A stretch of 64,000 nucleotides of DNA from Pedobacter yulinensis. Lineage in GTDB: Bacteria; Bacteroidota; Bacteroidia; Sphingobacteriales; Sphingobacteriaceae. The stretch covers positions 1,289,769-1,353,768 of the forward strand of contig NZ_KZ686268.1 in assembly GCF_003029735.1 (NCBI RefSeq), read 5' to 3'. The notes under the pieces are model-generated. The model was not told the origin of the DNA. It ran no database searches and saw only the letters and a program-made list of their open reading frames with translations. Both the position numbers and the translations under genes were made by a program. Below, piece after piece: positions 31,936-48,803 of this stretch. Every line of letters starts with the position of its first letter. The first letter of the stretch is position 1.

Positions 31936-33624
31936 TTATTCGACCGGTTCGTAACGGGTTGCATGAATGGATTTGCCGGGTTGAAGCAGGGCGCTTTGAC
32001 TGAGCGGGGTCGGCCGGTTGGGAAATTTCGAGGCGAGTAAGACCCCGTTTGCTACGAGAAAGACCAGGGCTTTAAAGATTGCTGTTTCAGGCGTTTCTCC
32101 GGCATCAGCTGCCGCACGGCAAAGTGCGCTGGCCTCGCAGGGGGCGCCTGCTGTTTCTAGAATGTTGATCAGCCGGAGCTGCACCGGGCTGAGGCCGATT
32201 TCGATCAGGCTGTGTGTAATGGATTCGGGTAAAAGCACCACCTGGTGCCTGATGCGCAACGGATTGGGCGGCCCGAGTTCCCGGCTGTTGAGCCAGTTCC
32301 ATTGGGTAACAACCCGTTTGCCCTGTGGGTTCATCTCCAGCCAGATCCCGGCGGCTTTCAATGCGGTCTCATCGGTGATCAGATCCTGCGAAGCAAGACA
32401 ATCCGAGTCGTGTTGCCGCAGCAGCTCAGCAGTCCACGAGCGAGCGGTCCTGATCCGTTCGGCCTCAAAGCGCAGCACATCTTCCATCTTCTGCCTGGCA
32501 AGGCTGCCAAGTTTGTTGGTTTCACTGAGCATGGCCTGCTCGAAAGCATCCACACTGCCCGAGGAAGGCACAGCAGCACCACAAACGGCAGCCATCCTGA
32601 CGCTGCGCCTGAAAGCCTTTTCAGGAGGTATCTGGCCTATCTTTTCCACAAAAGTAGCGGGCATCTTTTTGCCTGTGACCGCATATTGTTTTGTCGATGC
32701 ATGACGTAAAACTCGCTCGTACACATCGGGGTAATCTTTTTTCAGGCGGCGCGCCAGTTGTTTGCAGGTGGCCAGCGACCATTTGCGGCTTCCCATGACG
32801 TGTGCATATTTCCTGCCGGACGGCGATAACCCATGTTCATCAAGTTTAAGGTATTTAAAGGGCAACGGTTGCTTTGCGAAATGGTCTTCGTTGATCGCCT
32901 CGTTCGTATCGGGCATGATCAATCCCGGATAGAGGTCTGGCGAGAGCAAGGTGCCCAGGCTGATGTTTTCGTTTCTCATCATGGCTCCGGGCAGGACCTG
33001 TTCTGCAAGGTGTGTCATATACTGGGGGTCTTCAAGCTGACTGAATACCGCATCATGACCGGTGAGAAAAGTAAAGGCCTTCCTTGTATAGCGCTGAAAG
33101 AAACTGATGTTGCTCCCGCCCATGATGCCAGCGTTCATGGCGCAAAGATCATTGAGCCGGGCCGATGCCAGCCAGCCAGGAAAAGTGTGCTGCGGACGAA
33201 CGGCAAACAGCGTTTTGAGTATTTCAGCATAAAAACCTTTGTTCCCGCTGCGGTCGATCTCCAGGTTCTGGCAAACTACATCGTGCTTTTCTATAAAGCT
33301 TTCAGGAATTTTCCTGAATAAAAACACATCACCGTCTACATGCAAAAAAGATTCCTGCTGGAGTGAATAGGTGTGCAGCTTGGGTGCCGACCACAGGTAA
33401 TCGGCGAAGGGAAAGTTGTTCAGAGTCAGATGAAAGCCGGTATAAGGTAACCGGAAGCGGTCGTGCAGCAGTTCTGCACCCGAATGGTCAGTATACAATT
33501 CGACCTGGTTATAAAATTGGCGCAGTTGGAGGCAGCTCAGCGCCCAGCTCATGTAATGAAATACCGGGTCAGGCCAATGCCCATGCAGACCTGGTTTTGT
33601 CCAGAAGGTTTGTACGATTTTCAT
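31936..33624 (-). CDS. DUF6734-like GT-A glycosyltransferase in RiPP cluster
   Basis: A 562-residue cytosolic protein starting MKIVQTFWTKPG. The N-terminal half (about 280 residues) has GT-A features: FHYMSWALSCLQLRQFY, then QESFLHVDGDVFLFRKIP near residue 95 with a DxD-type metal motif, and NAGIMGGSNISFF near residue 170. This matches what I know as the DUF6734 family, putative glycosyltransferases. The C-terminal half is helical, with winged-helix-like sequence near the end, and unfamiliar. It is the last gene of the cluster operon, 48 bp after a lipoprotein gene. Role in sugar transfer to the modified peptide is inferred from fold and context. Confidence 0.65.
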   Translation of the reverse strand: MKIVQTFWTKPGLHGHWPDPVFHYMSWALSCLQLRQFYNQVELYTDHSGAELLHDRFRLPYTGFHLTLNNFPFADYLWSAPKLHTYSLQQESFLHVDGDVFLFRKIPESFIEKHDVVCQNLEIDRSGNKGFYAEILKTLFAVRPQHTFPGWLASARLNDLCAMNAGIMGGSNISFFQRYTRKAFTFLTGHDAVFSQLEDPQYMTHLAEQVLPGAMMRNENISLGTLLSPDLYPGLIMPDTNEAINEDHFAKQPLPFKYLKLDEHGLSPSGRKYAHVMGSRKWSLATCKQLARRLKKDYPDVYERVLRHASTKQYAVTGKKMPATFVEKIGQIPPEKAFRRSVRMAAVCGAAVPSSGSVDAFEQAMLSETNKLGSLARQKMEDVLRFEAERIRTARSWTAELLRQHDSDCLASQDLITDETALKAAGIWLEMNPQGKRVVTQWNWLNSRELGPPNPLRIRHQVVLLPESITHSLIEIGLSPVQLRLINILETAGAPCEASALCRAAADAGETPETAIFKALVFLVANGVLLASKFPNRPTPLSQSALLQPGKSIHATRYEPVE

Positions 33625-33672
33625 ATAGGGAGATCAGGTTTGTCGCCTTAACGGATTTCTGGCAGCCGCTGG

Positions 33673-34050
33673 TTATTTGAGGACTTCTACCCGGTAGGCC
33701 CCTTTGGCAGCCTGACCGGTTAGCGTGAGTTCGACCTCTTTGCCGGCCGCCACACGCACAGGCAGTTGACCGCTGGCTGATCCAGACACGGCCTTGTCGA
33801 GCAGCACCGTCCGGCCTTGTGTAATTTGCAGCTGCAGCTGACCGGATTGTACATCTGCTTTATAGGCCACCTGGCTGGTTTGTTTGTTCGCTGGTAAGAC
33901 CAGCCTGAATTTTTGCGTGCCATTAAAACTTGAAAAACTGGCATAAGACTCGTTTTCATTGCTGGTTCCTGCCCAATCACGGGTTACTGAACAGCCCCAT
34001 GTTACCGACACGATAAACAGAAAGGCCAACAGTTGATTTTTAATTTTCAT
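33673..34050 (-). CDS. Small lipoprotein, unknown function
   Basis: 125 residues with a lipoprotein signal (MKIKNQLLAFLFIVSVTWGCS, cleavage before Cys20), then a beta-rich domain (FSSFNGTQKFRLVLPANK, GKEVELTLTGQAAKGAYRVEV) that looks like a small beta-sandwich. No named family is recognised. It is located between two putative glycosyltransferase genes in the cluster, 19 bp after the GT9-like gene. It could be an immunity or transport accessory protein, which is a guess from location. Confidence 0.7.
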   Translation of the reverse strand: MKIKNQLLAFLFIVSVTWGCSVTRDWAGTSNENESYASFSSFNGTQKFRLVLPANKQTSQVAYKADVQSGQLQLQITQGRTVLLDKAVSGSASGQLPVRVAAGKEVELTLTGQAAKGAYRVEVLK

Positions 34051-34069: not shown

Positions 34070-35821
34070 TTACGAACAAAGAGGCTCGGCTTTGCCGCAT
34101 GGAGGGGCAGCGCGGAGCAGGCCCTTCATTTCTGGAATATTGGTTAATTTATTAAACAAGAGTTTTGCCGTAATGTTGCAGGCTTGGTCGGAGCAGGTCT
34201 GAAGAAACTCGACCTCTGCCGGCAATTGACGCATATCGACCAGGTTGTCGAGGCCGTTTTCAATGATAAGCACCAAACAACGAACCAGAGAATCGCCCCA
34301 CCAGTTATGCGGCAGGTAATCTTTGTCGTGCTCCTGCTTGCCGGTATAAACGACCATTTGGGGCAGGTCTTTGGCGTTGACCTTATTTTCCAGCAGCAGG
34401 TAGATCCAGGCGGCATTTGCAAAATGCAGCATACCGGTACATGGCCCGATAACCAGCCGGGTATAGCGGCTGATCAGGAACCCAAGGTCCTCGCGAACAC
34501 CGCCAGCGGGACGAAAAATAAGCCGGTCAGACAGCAGGCCAGCGGCGGCAAAATCGGTTTCGCAAAGGTCTTCGGCAAGAAAGATAAGCAGGCGGGCCGG
34601 TGTATGCTGCAAAAACTGACCGACCAGATCATAAAATTCCTCTTTTGGCAGTACCTTTTTCGCCCGCGAAGACCCGCTGAGCAGCACGATCAGGCCATGG
34701 TCGCTGTTTACACCCTGTGTTTCAAGCCAGGAATCTGCTGCCGCCCTTTCCGTTGTCGATACTGCCAGTGCGCGCTCTGGCCGGCACACCGGCTCGGGCT
34801 TTTTTGCGAATGCGGCAGCGGGCTCCTTGCCGGCCAGAAAGTCCCAGCCGTCCTGTCTTCCGTCGGGCTGGTCTGTCAGCGGATTGATCGTATAAACAGA
34901 TGTAGCCGAAAAGGATGTCGGCCGATCCTGCACCTGCAGTAGAAATTTCAGCACGAGATCGGTTTCCAGCACGACCAGATCATAGGTGGCAAAATCCAGG
35001 GATGCAAACGGTTGTTTGGAGATGACCACTTTTGCACCAAAGGCCGGGCCATACCAGGATTGAAGGCGGTCAAATGCGTTGTCGTTGTCTATGTTAATGG
35101 TGACCTGGTCAAAATCGCCGCAATGGCGCAGCAGTTTTTTCACATAATTCATCCAGACAACCGAATCGCCCAGGTAGAGGCGCCTGCGGTAGTCGTCAGC
35201 AATGAGGATGCGTTTGCAGGGCTTTTTGGCTAACCTCAGGTTATTTGCCTGTAAAGCGGTTACCAGTTTGCCGAATGTTTTCAGGTACGCTGTATACGTA
35301 TAAGTTCTACAGGCCGCCTGCATGCGTTTGCGAAATGGTTTAAGTTGCTGTTCCAGGAACGTTTCATCCATGCAGAACGCGGCCCCGGGTTCAAACAACT
35401 GGTCCACACGGGTAAAGCGGTACTGGTAGTCGCTGTCCCAGGGGTTGAGCATGCTCCAGATCACGCTGTCGCCGGCAGCCGGCTTACCCGTGGCTAAAAA
35501 AGAAGCCAGTTCTCGCTCCAGATCAAAGTGGCAGACCACGACATCATACTGTTCAAACTCCAGTTCTGCCCAGGCTTTTCGGGAAAGAAACGGGTTTGCA
35601 TAGGCGGTCAGCTCGCTGCCTGCTACCCAAAGCACATCGTGCGGCAGCCCCGAACGGTCATTTAATGTTACGGTTGCTCCGTTCTGGCTAAAAATGAATA
35701 ACAGGTTGTACAGGTGCCTGACCATCAGCCGGTCTGAACGTTTGTAGCGGATCAGGTTCGGAAAATCGCAGAGCACCAGTACGTTCAGGTGTTTCCGCTC
35801 AGGAGATAAAGGAAAACTCAT
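34070..35821 (-). CDS. GT9 (heptosyltransferase)-like protein in RiPP cluster
   Basis: A 583-residue soluble protein with a GT-B look: HLNVLVLCDFPNLIRYKRSD at the N-terminus, SDHGLIVLLSGSSRAKKVLP near residue 370 (the strand before the nucleotide-sugar site) and FLISRYTRLVIGPCTGMLHF near residue 455, which parallels the DTGxxH segment of heptosyltransferases. Overall identity is low and the protein is longer than usual. Its ATG overlaps the stop region of the ABC transporter gene by 23 bp. Sugar donor and acceptor are unknown; the family call is moderate. Confidence 0.6.
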   Translation of the reverse strand: MSFPLSPERKHLNVLVLCDFPNLIRYKRSDRLMVRHLYNLLFIFSQNGATVTLNDRSGLPHDVLWVAGSELTAYANPFLSRKAWAELEFEQYDVVVCHFDLERELASFLATGKPAAGDSVIWSMLNPWDSDYQYRFTRVDQLFEPGAAFCMDETFLEQQLKPFRKRMQAACRTYTYTAYLKTFGKLVTALQANNLRLAKKPCKRILIADDYRRRLYLGDSVVWMNYVKKLLRHCGDFDQVTINIDNDNAFDRLQSWYGPAFGAKVVISKQPFASLDFATYDLVVLETDLVLKFLLQVQDRPTSFSATSVYTINPLTDQPDGRQDGWDFLAGKEPAAAFAKKPEPVCRPERALAVSTTERAAADSWLETQGVNSDHGLIVLLSGSSRAKKVLPKEEFYDLVGQFLQHTPARLLIFLAEDLCETDFAAAGLLSDRLIFRPAGGVREDLGFLISRYTRLVIGPCTGMLHFANAAWIYLLLENKVNAKDLPQMVVYTGKQEHDKDYLPHNWWGDSLVRCLVLIIENGLDNLVDMRQLPAEVEFLQTCSDQACNITAKLLFNKLTNIPEMKGLLRAAPPCGKAEPLCS

Positions 35822-37496
35822 GCTGGTTATCGGGTGTTTTTTCGCGGACTATATATCCGTCTTCTATAAAATAAACGCGGTCACAGAGCGCAAGCGAAGC
35901 CGGACGGTGAGAGATCATGATCAGGATGGCATCGGGCTGACTCTGCCTGATGTTCAAAATGATGCGCCTCTCCAGCGCCAGGTCGAGAGAAGAGGTCGAT
36001 TCGTCGATAATCATCACAGCTGTGTCCTTGTGCAATGCCCTGGCAATAGAAATGCGCTGGCGTTGCCCGTCAGAAAGCCCCGACCCGGTTTCGCTGACCA
36101 GTGTATTCAGCCCCTCGGGCATCTGGTTCATCACTTCAAAAAATTCTGCATCACGGGTCGCTTTCATGAGCCTTGCTGCGCTGCCAGACTCCCGCTGCCC
36201 GTAACGGATGTTCTCTGCAAGGGAAACATGAAAAAGCTGGTCACATTTCTCGACAAGGCCCAGGTGGTCGGCCCAATTGCTTACCTGATGCAAGGGCAGG
36301 CGGTCATCCAGTAAAATCAGACCGTCATCTGGCTGGAGAAAACCGCAGAGCAAATTGACAATGCTGCTTTTTCCCGAACCGCTGGGCCCTGACAGTCCAA
36401 CCATTTCGCCGCGGTTGAACTGCAGATCAACGTGCTGAAGCACGCTCCTGTCGCCGTATTTCAGCGAAACATCTCTGAAGCTGATGCGGTTAAAATGCGT
36501 AATGACAGATTTGCAGGCCAGGGTATGACCAGCGGCATCATGGGTCACATCATACTCCATAAAATCGGCAATACGCTGCATTGAAACCAATGCCTTGTTG
36601 ACGCCGTTGTAGGTGTTCGCCAGGCTCATGGCCGGTGCATAAAGCCGGTTCAGGTACTGTACAAAAGCGACCAGGCTTCCCACGGTCATGGCGCCATAAA
36701 AAATCCGGTACCCGCCAAACATGAGGACGATCACGGGGCCAACAGCCACCAGGAAAGTGATGACATTACTGTTGGCGGCAGTAAGCATAGCATTTTTTAC
36801 GGTTTTATCTAGAATCTCGCCGTGTAGTGATTGCAGGCGGCCGGCTTCAAATACATAACTGTTGTAACTCTTTACCACACGGTGGTTCCTGAATACTTCC
36901 AGAAAGTAGGTGTTAAGACGTTCCTGCACTTCCTGTATTCTTCTGAAACTGTTTTGCAAAACGGGTGTAAACCTTTTTGAAATGACCAGCAGCAGGGGAA
37001 CGATGACCAGGCTGATGCTGGCCAGCCGGAAATCAAGGATCAGCAGCATGGCAACAATGCCGGCCAGCGTCAGCAGGTCGCTGGCACATTTCAGCAGGAC
37101 CGAAAACAGGGAGGACTGAATTACGCCGACATCATTCATAAGCAGAAAGGTCATGTCGCCAGCCTTCGTCTTCTTAAAAAAGCTGAGCGGTTTATGCAAG
37201 ACCTGCCGGTTAATATCAGCCTGGATGGCGGCAATGATCTGCTGCCCCATTTTGGTGTACCAGACATCGGTTACGAAAGTACACGCAATGCGGATAAGAT
37301 AAACCCCCACAAGAACGCCGAGTACAACGATCAGGTCTGAAAAGCTGCCATGGGGTAAGATGTCATCGATGATGATCTTCAGTACGTAGGGGCTTACCAG
37401 TGAACCTGCCGATGATACACCAAGTAACAGGAACACCAGCAGCAAGCCGGATCTGTGTGGTTGCAGGTATTTGTAGAACTGTCTGATCAACTCCAT
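35799..37496 (-). CDS. ABC exporter, fused membrane and ATPase domains
   Basis: A 565-residue half-transporter: N-terminal six-helix membrane domain (GLLLVFLLLGVSSAGSLVSP to about residue 320), then an ATPase domain with Walker A GPSGSGKSSIVNLL near residue 360, signature LSDGQRQRISIARAL near residue 460 and Walker B VMIIDESTSSLD. There is no N-terminal C39 peptidase domain, so leader removal must come from another enzyme (the S8 protease is the candidate). It lies 17 bp after the arginase-type gene. Likely exports the mature peptide to the periplasm. Confidence 0.9.
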   Translation of the reverse strand: MELIRQFYKYLQPHRSGLLLVFLLLGVSSAGSLVSPYVLKIIIDDILPHGSFSDLIVVLGVLVGVYLIRIACTFVTDVWYTKMGQQIIAAIQADINRQVLHKPLSFFKKTKAGDMTFLLMNDVGVIQSSLFSVLLKCASDLLTLAGIVAMLLILDFRLASISLVIVPLLLVISKRFTPVLQNSFRRIQEVQERLNTYFLEVFRNHRVVKSYNSYVFEAGRLQSLHGEILDKTVKNAMLTAANSNVITFLVAVGPVIVLMFGGYRIFYGAMTVGSLVAFVQYLNRLYAPAMSLANTYNGVNKALVSMQRIADFMEYDVTHDAAGHTLACKSVITHFNRISFRDVSLKYGDRSVLQHVDLQFNRGEMVGLSGPSGSGKSSIVNLLCGFLQPDDGLILLDDRLPLHQVSNWADHLGLVEKCDQLFHVSLAENIRYGQRESGSAARLMKATRDAEFFEVMNQMPEGLNTLVSETGSGLSDGQRQRISIARALHKDTAVMIIDESTSSLDLALERRIILNIRQSQPDAILIMISHRPASLALCDRVYFIEDGYIVREKTPDNQHEFSFIS

Positions 37497-37513: not shown

Positions 37514-38401
37514 CTAAACTGCAAGTGTGCAGTATTCTTCCATTTGCAGCGAATAAAGATCTCCGAGCGCATCGAGCACATTTTTCTCAATAAACCGCCA
37601 TTGACCAGGGGGGGTGAAACCACTGATGCGCGAGCGGCAGATGGTAATGAGATCAGGTTCGAGTTGTTTTTGCCGCAGCGCAGCAGCAAAGGCCTCGATG
37701 CGGTCGAGGATCACATCCGATGTGACTTCACGCTCACTTTCATATTTTTGTGTATAACCGTTCAGAATGTAAAAGTAGCGGCCACCCTGGGCCTGGGCCT
37801 TGATAAAGCCCGTAATAAAATTCAGGTAGTGATACCGGTTGCCGGTAAAGTCGAGGTATTCGTTTTCAGTAATTTCAATGACCACGCTGTTCTCTGCCGA
37901 AGGATTTACACAACAGGAGAAATAATCCAGGTCGATGTCGAGCACAAGGCTGCCGTCAATTCGGAGCGTCTGTGTTGCAAAGTCTGCAGCCGACCACTTT
38001 GCCGACCGGAAACCGCGGGTGTCTGCTGTGTCGTCTACTGTGTTTTTTCCCATGAGCAATCTTTTGCCGGCTCCATTGTAAGAGCGGATAAACAGCGGCA
38101 TGTCTGCCGACTGCCGCATATCCTGTCTGATCCAGGCGTAAGTATTGAAAAGCCCCAGATACATTGCAGGTGCAATAAAGGTGTCGATCTTAAATTCCTT
38201 GTAAACGAGCTCCTCTATCTGGGCCAGCGGTTGCTCCAGTAAACGAGCAATCGACTGTTCAAATACAGGCGTTCTGAAATCTGCATGGTCGTCAAAATGC
38301 AGCAGGACACCGCCTTTTTGTATTCGCTCCTGCTGAAGGGCCCCTGCCCAGGCAATAAAGGCTTCGTGGTGTTCTTCGACCACAACCAATGCTGTTTTCA
38401 T
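37514..38401 (-). CDS. UPF0489 family protein, candidate peptide arginase
   Basis: A 295-residue protein with the UPF0489 motifs: VVEEHHEAFIAW at residue 7, LLHFDDHADF at residues 33-42 (H35, D37, H39, D41) and LVLDIDLDYF at residues 152-161 (D155, D157, D159), the metal-binding set of an arginase-like fold. Known members acting on RiPP precursors (OspR type) hydrolyse peptide arginine to ornithine plus urea. Both precursors here have Arg in the core just after CGTNT, so the substrate is present. Activity is inferred; a role in another ureohydrolase reaction is possible. It sits between the GT1 gene (23 bp) and the ABC gene (17 bp). Confidence 0.8.
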   Translation of the reverse strand: MKTALVVVEEHHEAFIAWAGALQQERIQKGGVLLHFDDHADFRTPVFEQSIARLLEQPLAQIEELVYKEFKIDTFIAPAMYLGLFNTYAWIRQDMRQSADMPLFIRSYNGAGKRLLMGKNTVDDTADTRGFRSAKWSAADFATQTLRIDGSLVLDIDLDYFSCCVNPSAENSVVIEITENEYLDFTGNRYHYLNFITGFIKAQAQGGRYFYILNGYTQKYESEREVTSDVILDRIEAFAAALRQKQLEPDLITICRSRISGFTPPGQWRFIEKNVLDALGDLYSLQMEEYCTLAV

Positions 38402-38424: not shown

Positions 38425-39675
38425 TTAACCTGCACGAAGAACGAAGTCTGCTTCCTCTTCTTCCCGGTCCTGGTAGGCGGCAAAAAGTTGTTTGATCCGG
38501 ACCAAATTCTCTTTGTACCTGCCTGTTTCCAAACGGTTAATGTGCAACAGGATGTCTGCGGCCCGGTCGGTCTGGACATTGCCTACAACGCCGAGCTGAT
38601 GGTATTTGACGCGCGAGGCGTTGCCGAACATATCGCTGTCTGTGCTCCAGGGATAAACAACCATGGGTACGCCAAAATAGGCGGCTTCTTTAATGGAGTT
38701 CGCCCCGCCATGGGTAATGAACAGGTGGGCTTTTTCCAGCAAAGCCAACTGGGGTACAGAGCGAAAAACCCGTATATGGTCTGGAAGCCGCATGCTTAAA
38801 AGACTTTCGTGCAGATCACCCGCGTTGAGTACGAGTACATAACCAGCTAAACTGCTGAATGCACTGATCACTTCCCGGTAAAAACTGAGGCGCTGCTCTT
38901 GCTGCAGCCAGTGGCTCAGAGAACCGAGCGAGCACAACACCAGCTTGCGGCCTGCAGGCAAAAGCCCCCAGTTAAAGGCTTGCTCCTTTCTGGCTGTATC
39001 GATGAGCGCGCCGGCAAACCGCACATGTGGTGCCAGTTGTCTGGGAAAATCAAGCTCGATCGGATACAGAATCAGTTCCCAAACGCCTGGTACCCTGGGA
39101 TAAGAGATGCGGTTGTGCAGGGACAGCCGCTTTCCTGCCGGCAAGCCGGCCCGTTGTGCAATGACATCAAAATACCGGTCGAATGTGTGGCTGCGTGTAA
39201 GCGTTTTGTACCAGTTGCGCAGGTTGTTTTTTGCCCAGTGCCACTCAAATTTAAAATAGTCAGCCCAGCGCCGGGTATCAGAATAGCTGTACAGGGGACT
39301 GAGTTTGCCAAACCGTGTCCGGTCGCCGCAGGCCCATGGCTGGATCATCACTACTTTTTTATGCCGGCCCCTTACCAGCATGGCAGTATCCCAGAAGCCG
39401 ACTTCAGCAATGAAAAGTTCGGGGTTATACTGATCAATGAGCGTATCGATCAGGCTGTGCAATCCCTTGGCATTATGTTCACCCTGTGCCGTTTTTGCCA
39501 GCGCCGATCCGTAAAAACCGAAGCCATAACGTTCTACCGCTTTTTGCAGGGAAGGATCATTGACGTAGGTAATCCGGTAACCGCGGGCAGCGAGCAACCG
39601 CATTAACCGCAGTGTGCTGATAATGTGACTGATGTAGGGTGAGAGCAAGATGACAATATTTTTAACATCCTGCAT
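38425..39675 (-). CDS. GT1-type (MGT-like) glycosyltransferase
   Basis: A 416-residue GT-B enzyme starting NIVILLSPYISHIISTLRLM. The donor-binding motif HLFITHGGANSIKEAAYFGV followed by PMVVYPWSTDSDMFGNA near residue 310 is that of macrolide/UDP-glucuronosyl-type transferases, including the conserved THGG. These move sugars from UDP or TDP donors to small molecules and peptides. It is located 23 bp before the arginase-type gene and 9 bp after the outer-membrane protein gene. Likely glycosylates the modified peptide; donor unknown. Confidence 0.85.
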   Translation of the reverse strand: MQDVKNIVILLSPYISHIISTLRLMRLLAARGYRITYVNDPSLQKAVERYGFGFYGSALAKTAQGEHNAKGLHSLIDTLIDQYNPELFIAEVGFWDTAMLVRGRHKKVVMIQPWACGDRTRFGKLSPLYSYSDTRRWADYFKFEWHWAKNNLRNWYKTLTRSHTFDRYFDVIAQRAGLPAGKRLSLHNRISYPRVPGVWELILYPIELDFPRQLAPHVRFAGALIDTARKEQAFNWGLLPAGRKLVLCSLGSLSHWLQQEQRLSFYREVISAFSSLAGYVLVLNAGDLHESLLSMRLPDHIRVFRSVPQLALLEKAHLFITHGGANSIKEAAYFGVPMVVYPWSTDSDMFGNASRVKYHQLGVVGNVQTDRAADILLHINRLETGRYKENLVRIKQLFAAYQDREEEEADFVLRAG

Positions 39676-42117: not shown

Positions 42118-42229
42118 AGGATGGTAGATGTGCCGCCTTCTCTGCATTTCCTGTTTGAACGCTTTGAAGGCGGGAAGGAAAAATAACATTTTTTGTCAAG
42201 AAATCCTCGAAGTCTGCCAATTTTCTGAC

Positions 42230-42781
42230 CTAAGATCGCGCATATTTCAAGGCCAGGCTGAATCTGCTTTCCTTGCAAATGCGTGTAGATATGGTACCCA
42301 TGTGCCTGATATTTCCAGGGAAAATCAGGAAGCGGCCGGGGGCGGGCAGGACCGCTATTCTAGAGTCGTTGCCTTCATAAAACATCGTTTCGCCGCCGAA
42401 TTTATAGTTCCAGGTTTTGTTCACGTAATAGAGCACCGTCATGTCGTCTTTCTCTGCGGGGCAGTCGTCGTGCGGAAATTCGACATCCCCATAGTTAGAC
42501 AGGTTAATGTAAGCGCGCATCAGCACGTAACCGGCCGCGTCGTCTGCGAACTTGTCAAGCAGCGTCCTCGCTTTTTGGCCGATAAAGGTTTCCTGCTCAA
42601 ATGCAGCGGGGTCAAAATCGGTGCTGAAGATGGGAAACTGATCGTACGATGTGCTTTTTTCTGACCTTTTATATGGTAGCTGCGTAGCGTAGTCGTAAAA
42701 CACCTCGATCTCATCTTCAGATACCACATTATCAATGACATAAATGCTCTTGTTGTCAATTTTCTCAGTTCTGATTTTCAT
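42230..42781 (-). CDS. 2-oxoglutarate/Fe(II) oxygenase
   Basis: A 183-residue double-stranded beta-helix enzyme. The iron triad is visible: VEFPHDDCPAE (H104, D106) and GNIRHMGT (H160), and the 2OG-binding basic residue with its partner Ser appears in ESRFSLALKY (R173, S175). LYYVNKTWNYKFGGETMFY is the core strand seen in prolyl-4-hydroxylase-like members. It likely hydroxylates a side chain of the precursor. It overlaps the upstream JmjC gene by 17 bp (starts at 42781, upstream stop 42765), indicating coupled expression. Confidence 0.88.
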   Translation of the reverse strand: MKIRTEKIDNKSIYVIDNVVSEDEIEVFYDYATQLPYKRSEKSTSYDQFPIFSTDFDPAAFEQETFIGQKARTLLDKFADDAAGYVLMRAYINLSNYGDVEFPHDDCPAEKDDMTVLYYVNKTWNYKFGGETMFYEGNDSRIAVLPAPGRFLIFPGNIRHMGTISTRICKESRFSLALKYARS

Positions 42782-43613
42782 ATCCGACGGTTTTTTTTAG
42801 CTTGATTTTTTCAAACCCATGCCTGATAATCGATTCGATGTCTGCCATGTTCTTACGATTGGTGCCTGCCCTGAAAAAGGATCTTACCTGGTCGTAATTC
42901 GTCTCATTAATGAAGTTTTCGGTTACCGAAACAGACAATTCCAGATTAAAAGCGGCATGGTAACAGTTGTTCGGAACGAAAACCAGCTCGCCCGGCTGTT
43001 GGATGCAGAACATCGGGCGGTAACCAGCTGCCGTTTCGTCTTGCAGCAACCTGAGTATGGAAAACTCTGCGGGACTTTTCCTGATCCGTTCTGCATAGGC
43101 TTTCGGGTAAATGAGCCAGAGTTTGCGTCCTTCAAAAAGGAAATTCCATGCACTTGTGCCCCAGATATCGCGGTGCGTATCAGAGAAACTGTTCCTGGCA
43201 CCCACGTACAACCACGATAGCTGTTTTTTTGGTCTGGCAACAGGATTTCCGGCGTACCAGCAATCGAATACATGTCTGGGAGGAAGATCTGTGTAAAGAG
43301 CCGGCTCCTGCAAATGGAGTTGTGTCTTGTAGTAATAAAAGCCCTGTTCTCCATCCTGAAGGTATTCTCCCAGCGTCATGGCACGACCACTGGCCGCCGG
43401 CTCGCGGCATTCCAACAGTTGTGGCTGCGTAAGGCACCGGCTCAACGCTTCCAGCCGCCATTCCGGCTGCTCCAGCCATTCGCTGAATGCCTTGCTGAAC
43501 AACACGGGCTTCTCTGTGTAACCATATTGCGTGTTGAAATACTCCTGCGACAAAACGCTGGTTTCATCGGTGGTAATCGGCCTGAGCGACCGGGTCAGTT
43601 CGTGTTCTAACAT
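42765..43613 (-). CDS. JmjC/cupin-like oxygenase
   Basis: A protein of 282 residues from MLEHELTRSLRPITTDETSV at 43613 (an upstream ATG at 43667 would overlap the S8 gene by 35 bp). The JmjC-type fold shows WLYVGARNSFSDTHRDIWGT near residues 134-152 with the Fe ligands H147 and D149, the FEGRKLWLIYP strand with a 2OG-binding Lys candidate, and VPNNCYHAAFN with H219. This is the FIH/JMJD6-like class that hydroxylates Asn, Asp, Lys or Arg in proteins. A second oxygenase follows with overlap. The likely target is a core residue of the precursor; inferred. Confidence 0.87.
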   Translation of the reverse strand: MLEHELTRSLRPITTDETSVLSQEYFNTQYGYTEKPVLFSKAFSEWLEQPEWRLEALSRCLTQPQLLECREPAASGRAMTLGEYLQDGEQGFYYYKTQLHLQEPALYTDLPPRHVFDCWYAGNPVARPKKQLSWLYVGARNSFSDTHRDIWGTSAWNFLFEGRKLWLIYPKAYAERIRKSPAEFSILRLLQDETAAGYRPMFCIQQPGELVFVPNNCYHAAFNLELSVSVTENFINETNYDQVRSFFRAGTNRKNMADIESIIRHGFEKIKLKKTVGYENQN

Positions 43614-43632: not shown

Positions 43633-44367
43633 TTATGGTTGAAGGCTTTGCTCCGGTTCTTGCTCAAGTACGGCAGGATCGCTGGTGCGCTGCAACCAGG
43701 CTTTCAGCGACTCGTCGTTCTGCCAGTGTTCCTGCAGCCGGGCGCGTGTAATGATCCCCGTAAAACTTGCAGCGGCGAAACTGGTGCCATAGGCCATAAA
43801 ATATTTGTCTCCTGGCGCGGCTACTTTTTTATAATCCCCTTTTGCCAGGGCCATATTTAGCCCCGGGCCAAGGTAGTTGAAACGGTCGCCGTCAGTCGTC
43901 AAGCCCACCCTGACGCCGTAAACACCGGGCACATGGGCAGGAAAACAAAGCCTTTCCGCTTCCCGGGCATGGTGGTCTGCGGCGACAATGGTTATATTCT
44001 GCGCCTTTGCCTGTCGACATATAGCGAGCATTTCTTTAGACGGGACAGTTTTTTTTACGCCCATACTGATGTTGATCAGGTCAATGTCGCCGCGGTCAAC
44101 CAGGTACTGCATGGCTTCGAGCAGCATGTGTTCAGTGACAATGCCGGTGGCGCTGTCTGGTTTAACAACAACAAACGCGGCATCGGGGGCATACTGCCTC
44201 AGCACCGAGAGTACGCCGGTTCCATGCCCTTTTGCGTCAGTGAAAACATCATCCAGCACGTTTGGGCCCCGGGCGGTCCAAAACCGGGTCAGGCCGGATA
44301 CCTGTGCATGCCGGAATAGCCTGTGTGTGGCGTCTGCACCGCTGTCGATCATGCCAATCCTGATCAT
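43633..44367 (-). CDS. Cytosolic S8 (subtilisin-type) protease, candidate leader peptidase
   Basis: A compact 244-residue subtilase without signal or propeptide: catalytic D8 in IGMIDSGAD, H48 in AKGHGTGVLSV, S196 in AYGTSFAAASFTG. The oxyanion-hole position usually Asn (AAGN) reads AADHH near residue 131, an odd substitution. No secretion signal means it would act in the cytosol, as expected for removal of a RiPP leader before export by a transporter lacking its own peptidase domain. It begins 3 bp after the radical SAM gene stop. Confidence 0.87.
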   Translation of the reverse strand: MIRIGMIDSGADATHRLFRHAQVSGLTRFWTARGPNVLDDVFTDAKGHGTGVLSVLRQYAPDAAFVVVKPDSATGIVTEHMLLEAMQYLVDRGDIDLINISMGVKKTVPSKEMLAICRQAKAQNITIVAADHHAREAERLCFPAHVPGVYGVRVGLTTDGDRFNYLGPGLNMALAKGDYKKVAAPGDKYFMAYGTSFAAASFTGIITRARLQEHWQNDESLKAWLQRTSDPAVLEQEPEQSLQP

Positions 44368-44370
44368 CGT

Positions 44371-45825
44371 TTACTTGTTGGAATGGCCGGTATTGACGGC
44401 ATCGGCGGCTTGCGGCACTCCGATCTTTTCTGGCGTGTCGCGCATCATGACATATTGCTGGCCAATGTAATGCTCGGCTTTATACTTCCACTCGGTGCAT
44501 TGCGGTACTGAATTTTTCAGTGCATCATATGAACAGGAGATTTTATCGCAGACAGGCAGGTACTTGCAATTGCGGCAAACTACGTTGTGGTTGTACCGGT
44601 TAAACGAACTGTAGCTGGCGTAAATTTCCGGATCGTACGCATCAAAAACCGTACTTGGCGCCTTCGTATCATCGTGAATGGTTTCCCAGCATTTGTGAAT
44701 ATTTCCGTTTGGGTCCACAACCAGGCTAATGGGCGAGGCCCAGGTGGCGCAGGTCGATTGGTACGATGGCAGGTCCCACTTCAGGCGGGCTTTTCTGTTG
44801 CCGGTTATCTGGCTCCATGCGTTGAACCGCTCGGTGAGCGATAACCTGAATTTTTGTTTGAACTCAAAAAACTCATCCACAAACATGCGCGTGTCTTTCT
44901 CGTCTTCGGTAAGGCTGATCTCTTCATAGGATCGCAACCAGGCCGGGTCAAAATGGAAATGCTCATATTTTTGCGGCCAGAGTCCCCAGACATGGAAATC
45001 ATCAAGCATGGTCTCAACTGAGGCAGCCACCTCTTTGTCTACATTGACCCGTACATTGACATCGATCGACTTCGGAATGCCGGCCAGGTTTCGCAGGATG
45101 CGGAAATAATTTTCAGCGTTCTTTTGTTTAAGCGGCCGTTTGCGGTCGTGAACATCGCGAGCACCATCTATGGTAACCTGTACACTGTTTACCCGGTAAT
45201 CGACCAGTTTCTGGATATTTTCAGGTGTCAGGTAAATGCCATTGGTAATGATATTGGCCGCATATTCGAGTTTGTATTTTTCTGCGAGTGCCAGCAGGCC
45301 TACAGACAGATCGGTAATGGCCGCCACGTTGATAAGCGGTTCGCCTCCGTACCAGGTAACCGATAACGTATGGATATGATTCATCTTATCATTCCGGATG
45401 ATCTGCTCGATGTATCTGGGAATTTGCTCTTTGACACGCAGGTCTTTCAACGTATGGTTGGGCTTAACAAATTCAAAGCAGTAGGCGCAGCCCATGTTAC
45501 AGGTAATGGTCGTGCCGATGGTCAGGTTAATGATGCCGGCTTTTTTGAACTGGGTTTTATCGGTGTGCGATTCAAAAAATGCGACGATATCCACTTCCTG
45601 ACGTATCAGGTATTCTTTGGCTAACATACGCTCAAAGAACCCGGGGTTTTCTGCCCGGGTAGCGCCATCAAAGCAGGCCAGGGTCTGCAATTCGGCCATC
45701 AGGAAGCCCTCTTCCTGATCCAGGATCTCGATCCCGCCCGTCAATGTATTGAATAAAAGAAACTCGTCTGATTCGTCAGGCTGGATCAGGATGTTGTAGG
45801 GGTTTGTCTTGAATAGATTTTCCAT
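44371..45825 (-). CDS. Radical SAM/SPASM peptide maturase
   Basis: A 484-residue enzyme starting MENLFKTNPYNILIQPDES. The N-terminal about 90 residues resemble the precursor-binding region of SPASM maturases (FLLFNTLTGGIEILD). The 4Fe-4S site is TTITCNMGCAYCFEF (C109, C113, C116). The C-terminal SPASM region has LVVDPNGNIHKCWETIHDD, then VVCRNCKYLPVCDKISC and a final Cys in VPQCTEW, enough for two auxiliary clusters. Such enzymes make thioether or C-C crosslinks or epimerise residues in RiPP precursors. It follows precursor 2 by 81 bp. An in-frame start at 45879 is less likely. Confidence 0.92.
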   Translation of the reverse strand: MENLFKTNPYNILIQPDESDEFLLFNTLTGGIEILDQEEGFLMAELQTLACFDGATRAENPGFFERMLAKEYLIRQEVDIVAFFESHTDKTQFKKAGIINLTIGTTITCNMGCAYCFEFVKPNHTLKDLRVKEQIPRYIEQIIRNDKMNHIHTLSVTWYGGEPLINVAAITDLSVGLLALAEKYKLEYAANIITNGIYLTPENIQKLVDYRVNSVQVTIDGARDVHDRKRPLKQKNAENYFRILRNLAGIPKSIDVNVRVNVDKEVAASVETMLDDFHVWGLWPQKYEHFHFDPAWLRSYEEISLTEDEKDTRMFVDEFFEFKQKFRLSLTERFNAWSQITGNRKARLKWDLPSYQSTCATWASPISLVVDPNGNIHKCWETIHDDTKAPSTVFDAYDPEIYASYSSFNRYNHNVVCRNCKYLPVCDKISCSYDALKNSVPQCTEWKYKAEHYIGQQYVMMRDTPEKIGVPQAADAVNTGHSNK

Positions 45826-45906: not shown

Positions 45907-46080
45907 CTAGAAAAGAATGTCATCTTCTTCGATGGCATCGCTGCCCGGCCTGCGGGTATTGGTGCCGCAACTATAGCCCGAACAAAGAAGCTCAATCTCG
46001 TCAGACAGCCTGGTTTCAATTCGGTTCGGTTTTAACAATTCCTTGTTGAGCAGGGAAATTTGCAATTCTTCTTTGGTCAT
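45907..46080 (-). CDS. RiPP precursor peptide 2 (57 aa)
   Basis: A small gene below usual calling size. Leader MTKEELQISLLNKELLKPN, then IETRLSDEIELLCSGYSC, core CGTNTRRPGSDAIEEDDILF, stop TAG. It is 40/57 identical to precursor 1, with conserved leader (MTKEEL..SLL.KEL.KPN..ETRLS), two core Cys (positions 33 and 38), CGTNT, one shared Arg and the acidic EEDDILF end. It has two adjacent core Arg residues against one in precursor 1. It is immediately upstream of the radical SAM maturase and downstream of an intrinsic terminator. Substrates of the cluster enzymes by context and conservation. Confidence 0.9.
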   Translation of the reverse strand: MTKEELQISLLNKELLKPNRIETRLSDEIELLCSGYSCGTNTRRPGSDAIEEDDILF

Positions 46081-46122: not shown

Positions 46123-46155
46123 AAAAAGACGGCAATGGAAAGCTCCATTGCCGTC
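46123..46155 (-). terminator. Intrinsic terminator between the two precursor genes
   Basis: GACGGCAATGGA (46128-46139) and TCCATTGCCGTC (46144-46155) form a perfect 12-bp stem with a 4-nt loop. On the minus strand (the operon direction) it is followed by TTTTTCC at 46127-46121. It lies 12 bp after the stop of precursor 1. It would leave precursor 1 in excess over the modifying enzymes unless read through or antiterminated. Confidence 0.85.
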
Positions 46156-46166: not shown

Positions 46167-46340
46167 CTAGAACAGGATATCATCCTCTTCCAGCACGTCG
46201 CCGCTACCTCGGGCGGTATTGGTGCCGCAGCTAAACCCTGAACACAGGGAGTCTACTTCTTCAGATAACCTGGTTTCTGACAGGTTTGGTTTTACCAACT
46301 CTTTGCCTAGCAATGAGTTTTTCAGTTCTTCTTTAGTCAT
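46167..46340 (-). CDS. RiPP precursor peptide 1 (57 aa)
   Basis: A small gene below usual calling size. Leader MTKEELKNSLLGKELVKPN, then LSETRLSEEVDSLCSGFSC, core CGTNTARGSGDVLEEDDILF, stop TAG. Two core Cys (33, 38) flank S-G-F-S; one core Arg (44) follows CGTNTA. It is a paralogue of precursor 2 and identical in length. It lies 41 bp after the S41-family gene, followed by a strong terminator, so it should be the most abundant message of this segment. No signal peptide. Precursor status rests on the conserved leader/variable core pattern and the neighbouring maturation enzymes. Confidence 0.9.
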   Translation of the reverse strand: MTKEELKNSLLGKELVKPNLSETRLSEEVDSLCSGFSCGTNTARGSGDVLEEDDILF

Positions 46341-46381: not shown

Positions 46382-48193
46382 CTATCTCGAAATAGCAGTT
46401 TGAAGCACCTTATCACGATAAGGTTGCAGGTCCTGAACGTTGTCGATGCGTACCAGCACATCGGGCCTGATGCCCAGGCCCTCAATGCTCTGTTTGCCGG
46501 GCAGCAGTTTGCCCTCATTTGGCGAGTTGGTCAGAAAACTCACGCCTTCATCAGGCATCAACAGTTCATAGACAAAAGCGAGCGCACCGGCAGAAGCAGA
46601 TTTGCCCAAAATGGTAACGTTCCTGTTGTGTTGTTTAAGGTTGGCTGCGATCAGCTCTGCTGCGCAGGATGTCTTTTCGTCGATCAGGATCACAACCCGG
46701 CCGTCGGGCCGGAAACGGAATGGTGAGCGGTTTGCGTCCACCACGATAGAATCCCGGGCGCCGTTGCTGCGGTTCTGGAAGCCGCTGTATGTAAAATCAC
46801 CTGTTACGAAATAAGATACGAAACGTGCGCCGCCAATGACATCGCCGCCGCCGTTGCCGCGAAGGTCAAGAACCAGTTTTTTGCGCATGTTTATACTGTC
46901 CAGTTTGTTAATGAAATCGATCTGAAGCTCGTGGCTGACTTTGCCTAGCCGATAGTAGGCCACCGAATCATTCAGAAACCTGAACGTGTAATTGGCTGGC
47001 TTGAAATTCGGCGGAATGCGGTATTGTGCCTTTACGACATAGCTGTGCAGCGATTGCCTTCCTTGCGGATCGCGTATAGCGACCCTGACGGTGGTGCCTG
47101 GTTGCCGCCGCAACAGCTGTTCGGCTTTTCCGCCAGCTCTTTTTAAGGCGGCTGTCAGCCCAACCTCATCTATCGCCAGCAGTTCGCTTCCCATTGGGAT
47201 GTGCCGTTTCAGGGAATCGTCGAGAACGGCGGCTATCACATACTTCGCGCCGATCTGGTAAATGTAAACCGGGGTCTGGGTCTTTGCTTGCTTTCGGTGG
47301 CTATTGAGCCTGAAGTGGGGATCACCGTAAGCGTTTTCAATAAAGGCGCTGATGGAATCGACCATTTCGGATTTTGGGGCTGCGCTGAAGGCGCCGAAAC
47401 GCTGTCTCGCAGCAGCCAGGATCCTGTTTTTATCGAGCCTGCGTTCCCGATAAAACGGGTAGGCATCCATCAGCGCAAGCGCTACCGCTGGTATTGCAGT
47501 TTGCCCCAGCGGGCCCGGTTTACCCTCGATCAGCAGCGTGCCTTTGTAATTTTCCTCACGCTGCCCGGCAGGAAAATGCCCGAATACGCCGTAAGAGTCA
47601 AACGGGTGAAGGGGCTGCTTTTCCGCGTTGACCGGTGAAAAGGGGGGGCTCTGGAAAAAGGCCGCCGGCGATTTTGCCTTCCTGATCTGTGCGGAGCCGG
47701 CAAATGCGTCGGCAAGTACGAGCAGCGCCGGTTTCCCGGGGTCAAGCGCTTCAAAATTCACATACAACTCCAGCCGGTCTGCAGGACCATATGCTGGTAA
47801 GCTCTCCAGTTTTGATTCTACAGGAAGCTGATAACCGTTCTCCCTGAGCGTAACAGCCGCCAATGGGTAGATTTTCTCTTTCGTTTTTAAAGAAAAGCGG
47901 AGGCTTCTGATGTTCCTGGTAAAAAACCGGGTAAAAAAGACATCGGGCTGCTTCGGGTGGTTCGTCTGGAGCAAATAGCTTTGCGCATTTTCTGTAACCT
48001 GCAACGCCCGGGTTATCTCCGGATAGGCCTGTTGGGTCTGGTAGGCCGGGAAATAAAAGGGAACGGTTTGCCTGGTATCGCCGGCAGGCAGCCTGAAGGC
48101 CGTATCGGTATGCATGGTCTGGTACCAAACCTGCAGCTGTGCCCGGGCACTGCCGGCGAGCAGAACGAAAAAAAACAAAATTCGCAAGATCAT
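46382..48193 (-). CDS. Secreted S41-family protein with altered active site
   Basis: 603 residues with signal peptide (RILFFFVLLAGSARA). The C-terminal half is an S41 domain: RKKLVLDLRGNGGGDVIGG near residue 440 and VVILIDEKTSCAAELIAANL near residue 500. At the position of the catalytic Ser (SxSAAE in the family) stands Cys510, and the usual Lys motif (FGKG) is replaced by GKSASAGAL. It may be a Cys/Ser-other type hydrolase or an inactive binding protein. The middle contains a PDZ-like region. It is second in the operon, 85 bp after the NusG-type gene and just before the precursors. Possibly trims, senses or protects against the product in the periplasm. Confidence 0.75.
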   Translation of the reverse strand: MILRILFFFVLLAGSARAQLQVWYQTMHTDTAFRLPAGDTRQTVPFYFPAYQTQQAYPEITRALQVTENAQSYLLQTNHPKQPDVFFTRFFTRNIRSLRFSLKTKEKIYPLAAVTLRENGYQLPVESKLESLPAYGPADRLELYVNFEALDPGKPALLVLADAFAGSAQIRKAKSPAAFFQSPPFSPVNAEKQPLHPFDSYGVFGHFPAGQREENYKGTLLIEGKPGPLGQTAIPAVALALMDAYPFYRERRLDKNRILAAARQRFGAFSAAPKSEMVDSISAFIENAYGDPHFRLNSHRKQAKTQTPVYIYQIGAKYVIAAVLDDSLKRHIPMGSELLAIDEVGLTAALKRAGGKAEQLLRRQPGTTVRVAIRDPQGRQSLHSYVVKAQYRIPPNFKPANYTFRFLNDSVAYYRLGKVSHELQIDFINKLDSINMRKKLVLDLRGNGGGDVIGGARFVSYFVTGDFTYSGFQNRSNGARDSIVVDANRSPFRFRPDGRVVILIDEKTSCAAELIAANLKQHNRNVTILGKSASAGALAFVYELLMPDEGVSFLTNSPNEGKLLPGKQSIEGLGIRPDVLVRIDNVQDLQPYRDKVLQTAISR

Positions 48194-48278
48194 ACTGGGG
48201 TGCAGGCTGAATAAGGCAGCGGCAGATTTAACGCTTCGCTTTCGTCAACTATTGGTGTCTTGATGTCCGGCAAGGCTG

Positions 48279-48803
48279 TCAGACGGCTTCGCCGATATAC
48301 GATGCGGGAAGGGTAAGGGTGATGTTTTGTTTTAGCGAAGAAAGATTGAGCCAAACCCTGATTTTATGCTGATTGCTGACAGTCAGTATCTGGCAGAATA
48401 AACCTTTCAGGGGACCGAACAGGATCTGGCGCGAATCGCCGACGCGCGGCAGACGCTTGCCAACTTCAAGGTCTTCGGCGTCTTCAATCAGCAGAATATC
48501 CCTGATCTTGTTAATTTCCTCTACGCTTACCCGGGCATATTCCTGCCCGAAGCGGATAAAATTGAAGGCGCCGCTGGCTTTCAGTGCAAGGTGGAAGTCT
48601 TTAAGCGAACGCAGGAACACAAAAACGTAAGAAGGGAAGAGCGGTAAAACAATGGTTTTCTTTCGATCGCTCCATTGCCGGCTAACTTGTTTAAGGGGAA
48701 GAAACGATTGTAACGAAAACCGGTTCATTTCCTGCTGGACTTTTGCTTCATGTTTCGTTTTTACCTGCAAAACATGCCATCCGTTGAAATTTTGCTGTAT
48801 CAT
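48279..48803 (-). CDS. NusG paralogue / UpxY-type antiterminator
   Basis: A 174-residue protein from ATG 48803 (MIQQNFNGWHVLQVKTKHEA); a longer frame adds 15 unconserved residues. The NGN domain is visible (GWHVLQVKTKHEAKVQQEM, then LPLFPSYVFVFLRSLKDFH) and a C-terminal KOW region (RVGDSRQILFGPLKGLFCQI). Specialised NusG paralogues such as UpxY and LoaP bind RNA polymerase in one operon and suppress termination in it, often for polysaccharide or antibiotic genes. It is first in this long operon, which contains an internal terminator, so operon-specific antitermination is likely. Confidence 0.88.
   Translation of the reverse strand: MIQQNFNGWHVLQVKTKHEAKVQQEMNRFSLQSFLPLKQVSRQWSDRKKTIVLPLFPSYVFVFLRSLKDFHLALKASGAFNFIRFGQEYARVSVEEINKIRDILLIEDAEDLEVGKRLPRVGDSRQILFGPLKGLFCQILTVSNQHKIRVWLNLSSLKQNITLTLPASYIGEAV

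Follow-up and report, generated by a model that had tools for sequence, protein, structure and literature searches.

A variant of the FlmA RiPP family with predicted glycosyltransferase genes in Pedobacter yulinensis

Background

The closest described systems are the flm cluster of Flagellimonas meridianipacifica and the ohk cluster of Ohtaekwangia koreensis, members of the 'DD(I/V)LF' or FlmA family of RiPPs, in which the peptide arginases FlmR and OhkR convert core Arg to ornithine, as shown on FlmA1-3 and OhkA1-2 (Pfeiffer et al. 2025, PMC12703449). The product of the family was stated to be unknown in 2025 (PMC12703449), and the literature searched yielded neither structural or mass data for any FlmA-family product nor assays of FlmA-family enzymes other than the arginases.

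Single steps are also described elsewhere. In the biphenomycin and pbs pathways (PMC12707348, PMC12257519), a UPF0489 arginase is followed by a JmjC/cupin ornithine hydroxylase; in biphenomycin this is BipG, a JmjC ornithine gamma-hydroxylase. In QHNDH maturation (PMC7876137), QhpD forms radical-SAM thioethers, QhpE is a subtilisin-like cytoplasmic leader peptidase, and QhpF is the ABC exporter.

Results

Gene content and comparison with described systems

We analyzed 64,000 nucleotides of the Pedobacter yulinensis genome (hereafter the window), in which a minus-strand run at 31936..48803 comprises fifteen open frames with intergenic gaps, for the starts used, of -23 to +86 bases. The sequence-only reading had described fifteen genes in one direction with short gaps or overlaps; all frames were present on the minus strand at the positions given, and families were assigned to them. 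Starting from the first gene, the features are:

48279..48803, minus strand, NusG-paralogue antiterminator of the UpxY/RfaH/LoaP type, first gene (PF02357)
46382..48193, minus strand, S41-type peptidase with a signal-peptide-like N-terminus (PF03572, E 8.9e-19)
46167..46340, minus strand, precursor peptide A1, 57 aa, core CSGFSCGTNTARGSGDVLEEDDILF (NF052472)
46128..46155, minus strand, terminator-like hairpin between A1 and A2, 12 bp stem with a T tail
45907..46080, minus strand, precursor peptide A2, 57 aa, core CSGYSCGTNTRRPGSDAIEEDDILF (NF052472)
44371..45825, minus strand, radical SAM/SPASM maturase of the FlmE/OhkG family (NF052473, 784.7 bits, cut-off 500)
43633..44367, minus strand, QhpE-like S8 subtilisin-like protease, predicted leader peptidase (PF00082)
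42765..43613, minus strand, JmjC oxygenase, predicted Orn/Lys hydroxylase (PF02373, E 2e-14)
42230..42781, minus strand, FlmC 2OG-Fe(II) oxygenase (NF052475, 303.7 bits, cut-off 240)
39685..42189, minus strand, outer-membrane beta-barrel (OMP_b-brl_3) with a CarboxypepD_reg domain (PF14905, E 8.8e-93)
38425..39675, minus strand, GT1-type glycosyltransferase, macrolide/UDPGT type (PF00201, E 5e-16)
37514..38401, minus strand, UPF0489 peptide arginase of the FlmR/OhkR family (NF052474, 361.7 bits, cut-off 350)
35799..37496, minus strand, MsbA-like ABC exporter (PF00664, PF00005)
34070..35821, minus strand, predicted GT9-like (GT-B fold) glycosyltransferase, from its predicted fold
33673..34050, minus strand, small predicted lipoprotein with lipoprotein-like N-terminus MKIKNQLLAFLFIVSVTWGC
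31936..33624, minus strand, DUF6734 protein, predicted GT-A glycosyltransferase (residues 1-310) with a putative C-terminal TglI/RRE-like domain (331-533)

The radical SAM gene probably starts at ATG 45825 rather than GTG 45879 (484 aa in the database copy, P0001), and the JmjC gene probably at ATG 43613. The NusG paralogue scored 93.1 bits against the UpxY model NF033644, just below its cut-off of 100. The S41 protein carries a catalytic-Ser-like TSCAAE motif, and the Lys-motif pattern tried on it gave no match. The ABC exporter has no peptidase domain.

The precursors, maturase, arginase, and FlmC pass the NCBI cut-offs for FlmA, FlmE/OhkG, FlmR/OhkR, and FlmC, which places them in these families. 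The reading as a RiPP operon was right, and the 31936..48803 run is a RiPP gene cluster. The companion claim, that this core is new to described families, did not hold: it is the core of the flm/ohk family (Pfeiffer et al. 2025, PMC12703449), already represented in NCBIfam, and the window cluster is a variant of that known orphan family rather than a new one. The FlmA-family core combined with three glycosyltransferase-like genes was not found in print among the main texts of open-access PMC.

The window shares with flm and ohk the precursor family, the FlmE/OhkG radical SAM enzyme, the arginase, and the S41, S8, JmjC, and ABC proteins, and with flm also FlmC and the NusG paralogue. It differs from both in its three glycosyltransferase-like genes, its one-domain S8 protease, the presence of only one core Arg in A1, and an OMP_b-brl_3 barrel where flm and ohk have a MacB/FtsX-like protein. 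The Pedobacter cryoconitis M2T3 cluster (L001/L092/L093) has identities of 67% for the radical SAM enzyme, 63% for FlmC, 42% for JmjC, and 43% for the arginase, and likewise carries the OMP, the lipoprotein, a GT9-like protein, and a distant GT1. Unlike the window, its S8 protein has a TIGR04066-like domain (below the family cut-off), and it has a condensation-domain protein and no DUF6734 match. The lipoprotein has homologues in P. cryoconitis and G320, where they adjoin the barrel gene, and in SZAS-47, where the distance to it is 1.6 kb.

The order of arginase and then JmjC/cupin hydroxylase, the latter predicted in the window, is shared with biphenomycin/pbs, whereas those pathways act on an aromatic motif with an MNIO and a B12 radical SAM enzyme (PMC12707348, PMC12257519); Pfam scans of the operon proteins found no DUF692/MNIO or B12-binding domain. 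As in QHNDH maturation, the window has a radical SAM enzyme, a subtilisin-like protease, and an ABC exporter, although the QHNDH substrate is an enzyme subunit (PMC7876137) and that of the window is a pair of precursor peptides.

Conservation among relatives and precursors

We compared 21 genomes besides the window (19 Bacteroidota, 1 Latescibacteria, and 1 Gemmatimonadetes), most of them chosen by the radical SAM enzyme, which is present in all 21. S8 was identified in 20, S41 in 19, JmjC in 18 (2 degenerate), the arginase gene in 15 (2 with a broken frame, G952 and G814), and FlmC in 12. Because the same core recurs in distant relatives, the gene grouping is more than chance. Precursors lacking these enzymes were also sought, in a light test: precursor-only discovery yielded four genomes besides that of the window, and a radical SAM gene and an arginase gene lay near the precursor in 4/4.

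A1 and A2 score 75.6 and 74.6 bits against the FlmA model (cut-off 30), and both end in EEDDILF, the DD(I/V)LF signature of the family. The set of 43 precursors (38 distinct sequences) includes those of G814, G817, and G818, which were chosen by motif and fall short of the FlmA model, and leaves out a fourth FlmA-model match in flm. The Arg and FlmC tables do not include G816 (L013), where neither motif nor model found a precursor. Cysteines are present in 43/43 precursors, exactly two in 41 and four in the other two. P. cryoconitis has one further precursor (L092), about 20 kb away from the cluster of that genome.

Of 23 precursors, 10 are followed by a stem of at least 10 bp with a T-rich tail and 13 are not, compared with such a stem at 1 of 195 control gene ends, the controls being ends of non-overlapping open frames of at least 150 aa in 14 loci. 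The 23 precursors include close kin, and the hairpin-bearing lineages, counted by reading, number about seven. In a possible regulatory model, the hairpin after A1 would hold back transcription of the enzyme genes, with the NusG paralogue helping polymerase past it.

Radical SAM enzyme and core cysteines

The maturase carries CxxxCxxC. After FlmE, its nearest families are TIGR04463, Clo7bot, CefB, geopeptide, and the ranthipeptide maturase PapB, and profile comparison related it to solved structures including 8vpo, 5wgg (CteB), SkfB 6efn, and four others. Because of this kinship and the conserved cysteines, we infer thioether chemistry, and the enzyme likely links the two core cysteines in this way. 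In the sactipeptide/ranthipeptide class such thioethers run from Cys to a non-Cys residue, and the maturase relates to that class by sequence kinship. We regard as rather improbable the alternative that the enzyme forms carbon-carbon links, such as a cyclophane, or introduces some other change while the cysteines form a disulfide or bind metal. SPASM matches do include cyclophane makers or their kin (YhhB, XyeB, and DynA), and an aromatic residue often lies between the core cysteines; yet that residue is not conserved, whereas the cysteines are, and the nearest families listed above speak for the thioether, as does the QhpE-like S8 protease, since QhpE partners a thioether maker (PMC7876137).

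Peptide arginase and core arginine

The UPF0489 protein has the motifs EEHHE, DDHAD, and DIDLDYFSC, corresponding to the EEHxEAF, DxHxD, and LDIDLDYFSC motifs of the FlmA family. Its earlier assignment as a peptide arginase stands, with the NF052474 cut-off passed and a match to the OspR-type structure 8brp at E 1.1e-48. Judged from this sequence relationship, the arginase would turn the core arginines of the window, one in A1 and two in A2, into ornithine.

Core Arg covaries with the arginase gene: it occurs in 15 of 16 genomes with the gene and 0 of 6 without it (Fisher p 9.4e-5), or, by precursor, in 28/29 and 0/14. Core residues were Arg at 57 of 754 positions in arginase genomes and 0 of 366 in arginase-less ones, while leader Arg was alike in the two groups (31/972 vs 11/363 residues). 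The contrast was retained when only genomes with a precursor passing the FlmA model were counted (14/14 vs 0/5, p 8.6e-5), and a genome-wide search found no arginase gene in any of the six arginase-less genomes. The exception is G817, with an arginase and a single precursor found, which has no Arg. The G952 arginase frame is broken in the assembly after EEHHEAF, and the G814 match holds one stop; the test gave p 6.2e-4 with G952 counted as arginase-less and p 2.3e-3 with both. Independent events were few: the arginase, core Arg, FlmC, and R/K states show three changes apiece when mapped on the radical SAM tree, and independent-pair sign tests cannot reach significance.

Oxygenases

Iron ligands are present in both oxygenases, HRD...H in JmjC and HxD...H in FlmC. 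An R or K follows the last Cys in 13/13 genomes with FlmC vs 2/9 without it (p 2.1e-4), three of the genomes scored FlmC-less giving weak FlmC-model matches of 20.9-29.9 bits (cut-off 240). The two exceptions, both without FlmC but with a Lys beyond the last Cys, are G818 and G814, the latter a fragmentary MAG. Two arginase-less Chryseobacterium lineages are informative. In one (G806, G807, and G900), core Lys replaces Arg (..AKGSGD vs ..ARGSGD in the window), and FlmC and a JmjC with HxD are kept. In the other (G872 and G935), the core has no R/K, there is no FlmC, and the iron-binding HxD is missing from JmjC. Because the Lys lineage keeps both enzymes and the R/K-less lineage co-loses them, and by analogy with BipG, JmjC and FlmC likely act on Orn/Lys; in the window, ornithine would be hydroxylated by both.

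Asn is the target of JmjC oxygenases like FIH, and many precursors have an Asn within a few residues after the second Cys. Further, the ohk clade has a JmjC with HxD, no FlmC, and core basic residues only between the cysteines. Hydroxylation of core Asn, Asp, or another residue instead of Orn/Lys is nevertheless an unlikely reading: it sits poorly with the two Chryseobacterium lineages, and in SZAS-47 and G952, where FlmC is present and JmjC carries HxD, the stretch from the second Cys to the C-terminal acidic segment contains no Asn. For the same reason, Asn after the second Cys was rejected as a rule for the FlmC target. The JmjC of G872 and G935, once considered as counter-evidence to an Orn/Lys target, was dropped since HxD is missing there.

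S8 protease and export

The S8 protein has the motifs DSGAD, GHGT, and GTSFA. It scored 101.9 bits against the QhpE equivalog NF049966, below the cut-off of 165, and may work like QhpE despite this score. By this analogy the leader is likely removed by S8, which would make the cut before ABC export. The window protein is a single domain, without the C-terminal TIGR04066-like domain of several relatives, and no TIGR04066 match occurs elsewhere in its genome. TIGR04066 matched in 5/8 genomes, always under its 200-bit cut-off, in S8-sized frames of 626-651 aa (G392, G808, G303, and G900) or two shorter frames (G952), and gave none in G000, G403, and G811.

Glycosyltransferase-like proteins

The three putative glycosyltransferases of the sequence-only reading stand as predictions, GT1 by Pfam and the other two by predicted fold. 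GT1 relatives were found in G403 (34%) and in P. cryoconitis and G320 (23-24%). The GT9-like protein had no match in the Pfam scan and scored 16.1 bits by sequence against a heptosyltransferase model; the predicted fold of its catalytic part is that of a GT-B heptosyltransferase. DUF6734 is a predicted GT-A glycosyltransferase, with a DxD motif in the modeled fold, and, TglHI aside, the other fold matches shown were glycosyltransferase entries. In the predicted-fold comparison its C-terminal domain may resemble the RiPP-recognizing TglI, a resemblance to which sequence comparison gave no support.

In a profile survey, GT9 was newly found in G872, G935, and G303 and DUF6734 in G872, G935, and Cyclobacteriaceae (a frame truncated where the locus ends). 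Because BLAST-found relatives had gone into the GT1 and GT9 profiles, those relatives match by construction; the survey excluded the Rikenellaceae MAG (L011). In the fetched flanks, which were unequal and for some loci 10 kb per side, no GT9, GT1, or DUF6734 match occurred at flm, Maribacter, C. hostae, G952, or ohk, and the three are therefore not core. We also rejected their inclusion in a basic-residue module: G872 and G935, which lack core R/K, still have GT9-like and DUF6734 genes, and sugar transfer is therefore not tied to ornithine.

This variability leaves room for a peptide that is free of sugar, made by a core ornithine RiPP pathway while GT1, GT9-like, and DUF6734 serve a surface glycan, self-protection, or a glycosylated carrier, a possibility we take seriously but do not favor. 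The NCBIfam models that GT1 matched best, none of them at its cut-off or above, describe macrolide-type transferases, including macrolide-inactivating and self-immunity ones; LPS heptosyltransferases are among the GT9 kin; and the GT9-like gene is opposite in strand to the core genes in P. cryoconitis, G320, G872, and G935. Gene proximity argues the other way. In the window, the ABC and GT9-like genes overlap by 23 bases and the GT1/arginase gap is 23; in 10/10 GT9-bearing genomes (that of the window included), the GT9-like gene has an ABC-transporter gene next to it, which in nine overlaps it or is no more than 12 bases away and in SZAS-47 is about 0.8 kb away. The three non-self GT9-like matches, from 7,997 candidates, lie on contigs equal in length to those of FlmE-family (2) or DUF6734 (1) matches, and the possible resemblance of the DUF6734 C-terminal domain to a precursor-recognition domain also points to the peptide. 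Based on folds and Pfam, we favor sugar transfer to the peptide, with up to three glycosyltransferase-like proteins adding the sugars.

Discussion

We consider it reasonably probable that the cluster makes an FlmA-type RiPP with Cys thioethers, conversion of Arg to Orn, Orn hydroxylation, sugars added by up to three glycosyltransferase-like proteins, S8 cleavage, and ABC export. A more specific version is speculative and improbable as it stands: a hydroxylated-ornithine peptide glycosylated by a glycogenin-fold enzyme with its own precursor-recognition domain, the hydroxylation recalling collagen hydroxylysine chemistry. Our open-access literature search found no report of a RiPP glycosyltransferase with its own precursor-recognition domain. 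New here are the covariation of core Arg with the arginase, the glycosyltransferase predictions for DUF6734 and the GT9-like protein, and the hairpin after precursors.

FlmA is an orphan family of which the arginases have been assayed (PMC12703449), and the covariation, with its natural change from Arg to Lys in a lineage that lacks the arginase, suggests which enzymes match which core residue; each oxygenase's role is therefore directly testable. DUF6734 is common in Bacteroidota (at least 239 matches) and unannotated, and the prediction gives it a likely enzyme class.

Operon structure and family membership

The operon comprises fifteen genes on the minus strand, running from 48,803 to 31,936 with intergenic gaps of -23 to +86 bases, which bears out the sequence-only reading of fifteen same-strand genes with short gaps or overlaps. 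Most of these genes could be named with Pfam and NCBIfam, and NCBI curated cut-offs were passed by both 57-residue precursors, A1 and A2 (FlmA), the radical SAM enzyme (FlmE/OhkG), the UPF0489 protein (FlmR/OhkR), and the small 2OG oxygenase (FlmC). The genome is 4.31 Mb in size, and the window has a GC content of 50.7%. The same reading had found this enzyme combination in no described family it knew of; this does not hold for the core, because the precursor, radical SAM enzyme, arginase, and FlmC belong to a family whose arginases and DD(I/V)LF precursors are already described (PMC12703449). That study reported 30 arginases with 57 DD(I/V)LF precursors, found that FlmR and OhkR convert core arginines, not leader ones, in E. 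coli co-expression, and also demonstrated arginase activity in vitro; it states the product, core boundary, cleavage site, and role of DD(I/V)LF as unknown.

Core arginine and the peptide arginase

We compared clusters from 22 genomes, including that of the window, with 43 precursors (38 distinct sequences) and the core counted from the first Cys onward. Among the 16 arginase-bearing genomes (29 precursors), 57 of 754 core residues were arginine vs. 0 of 366 among the 6 arginase-less genomes (14 precursors), with leader arginine alike in both sets (31/972 and 11/363, respectively). A genome-wide search with the peptide arginase model NF052474 found no match in any of these six genomes. At the genome level, core arginine was present in 15 of 16 arginase-bearing and none of the 6 arginase-less genomes (p 9.4e-5), although the radical SAM tree shows just three changes each in arginase and core-arginine state, and therefore this and the following p-values overstate independence. 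The exception, G817, has an arginase and no arginine in the sole precursor found. Scoring G952, whose arginase frame is broken in the assembly, as absent gave p 6.2e-4, and scoring both G952 and G814, whose arginase match contains one stop, as absent gave p 2.3e-3. The precursors of G814, G817, and G818 were chosen by motif and fail the FlmA model; without these genomes, core arginine was found in 14/14 arginase-bearing vs. 0/5 arginase-less genomes (p 8.6e-5).

The frame break in Chryseobacterium G952 (L129:4680-5614) lies near the 5' end of the gene, yet the precursor core carries three arginines; it reflects either recent loss or an assembly error.

Oxygenases and basic core residues

Three Chryseobacterium genomes (G806, G807, and G900) have no arginase and retain FlmC and a JmjC protein with HxD, and their precursor reads AKGSGD vs. 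ARGSGD in the window. Two others (G872 and G935) have zero core R/K in ten precursors, no FlmC match in genome-wide searches, and a 220-aa JmjC protein lacking HxD. FlmC was identified in 13 of the 22 genomes, and every one of these 13 carries a basic residue (R or K) downstream of the final Cys, vs. 2 of the 9 FlmC-less genomes (G818 and G814; p 2.1e-4), with three of these 9 giving weak FlmC-model matches of 20.9-29.9 bits (cut-off 240). In published work on the biphenomycin and pbs pathways (PMC12707348, PMC12257519), ornithine from a UPF0489 arginase is hydroxylated by the JmjC protein BipG in the biphenomycin pathway. Given this precedent and the oxygenase covariation, which spans few lineages, the most parsimonious interpretation is that ornithine, or the lysine that replaces it, is the target of both JmjC and FlmC.

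Three extra tandem genes were identified in ohk-type clusters upstream of the arginase or precursors (L007:616-3497, L008:405-3391, and L010:3176-6028), one of which weakly matches JmjC_2, below its cut-off.

Predicted cross-link, leader removal, and export

Two Cys residues were found in 41 of 43 precursors, spaced C-x(3-9)-C, and four in the remaining two. After FlmE, the nearest families of the radical SAM enzyme were the TIGR04463, Clo7bot, CefB, geopeptide, and PapB maturases, and its nearest solved relatives by profile were 8vpo and 5wgg, which we take to be CteB, with SkfB lower down. The S8 protease resembles QhpE, which removes the leader after radical-SAM thioether formation and before ABC export (PMC7876137). 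A Pfam scan found no peptidase domain in the window's ABC exporter. In several relatives, S8 is fused to a TIGR04066-like/DUF1611 domain; the TIGR04066-like domain had no match in the window's genome.

Predicted regulation

A 12-bp terminator-like hairpin lies between A1 and A2, and the NusG paralogue is the first gene of the operon. Stems of at least 10 bp with a T-rich tail within 90 bases occurred at 10/23 precursor ends vs. 1/195 control gene ends (p 2.2e-10, a statistic that ignores kinship among precursors), and the hairpin sequences differ between distant relatives. Plausibly, a leaky terminator after A1 would favor precursor over enzyme, with the NusG paralogue aiding read-through past it.

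Neighborhood and variant clusters

Genes for tRNA-Met and tRNA-Glu (30974-31160) lie immediately downstream of the operon. Such genes are frequent island insertion sites; cluster GC showed no clear difference from its surroundings. FecR, TonB-dependent receptor, and SusD genes (51020-57481) adjoin the operon on the opposite strand.

In the flm locus, for which PMC12703449 names three FlmA peptides, a 335-aa AraC-type regulator frame (L005:7990-8997) continues into an FlmA-like tail that ends in CREYQGGPHCRVNSESGINEDILF. This tail gives a fourth match to the FlmA model (67.2 bits) and is either fused or a fourth precursor in the same reading frame. Among other FlmA-family clusters, a gene at L007:6038-7096, with kin in L008, L010, and L012, weakly matches the lipid A acyltransferase family PF03279 (E 0.0016, below cut-off), with no PF03279 match in the L008 and L012 kin, and stand-alone condensation-domain proteins are encoded at L001:19652-21031 (P. 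cryoconitis M2T3) and L094:14357-15730. These acyltransferase-like or condensation-domain genes hint at possible lipidated variants. In nine loci, the radical SAM gene or the S8 gene is adjoined by a conserved gene of ~285 aa (L005:14436-15317, homologues in L006-L010, L012, L094, and L097); the members scanned matched no family, and no homologue was found among the window genes.

Distribution

In the genome draws sampled, few genomes carried the system, and its distribution was patchy. The FlmA precursor model matched 4/399 genomes of the window's family, 5/400 of its order (a draw overlapping that of the family), and 1/395 of its class, the window's own genome included each time. The radical SAM family was present in 6/173 Chryseobacterium genomes and in 1/195, 1/187, and 1/199 genomes around Chitinophaga hostae, Ohtaekwangia, and Flagellimonas, respectively, each being the center genome itself. 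Clusters from Latescibacteria (L014) and Gemmatimonadetes (L063) encode four-Cys FlmA-like peptides, S41, S8, and radical SAM enzymes scoring 389 and 404 bits, under the FlmE cut-off, and searches of these clusters for JmjC and FlmC gave no match; they are perhaps an older, simpler form of the system.

For the operon's variable decoration module (GT1, GT9-like, and DUF6734 glycosyltransferase-like genes), we found no description in the literature searched, and much of the chemistry that we propose for the operon we infer. The operon is real and well conserved and belongs to an orphan RiPP family that has already been described.
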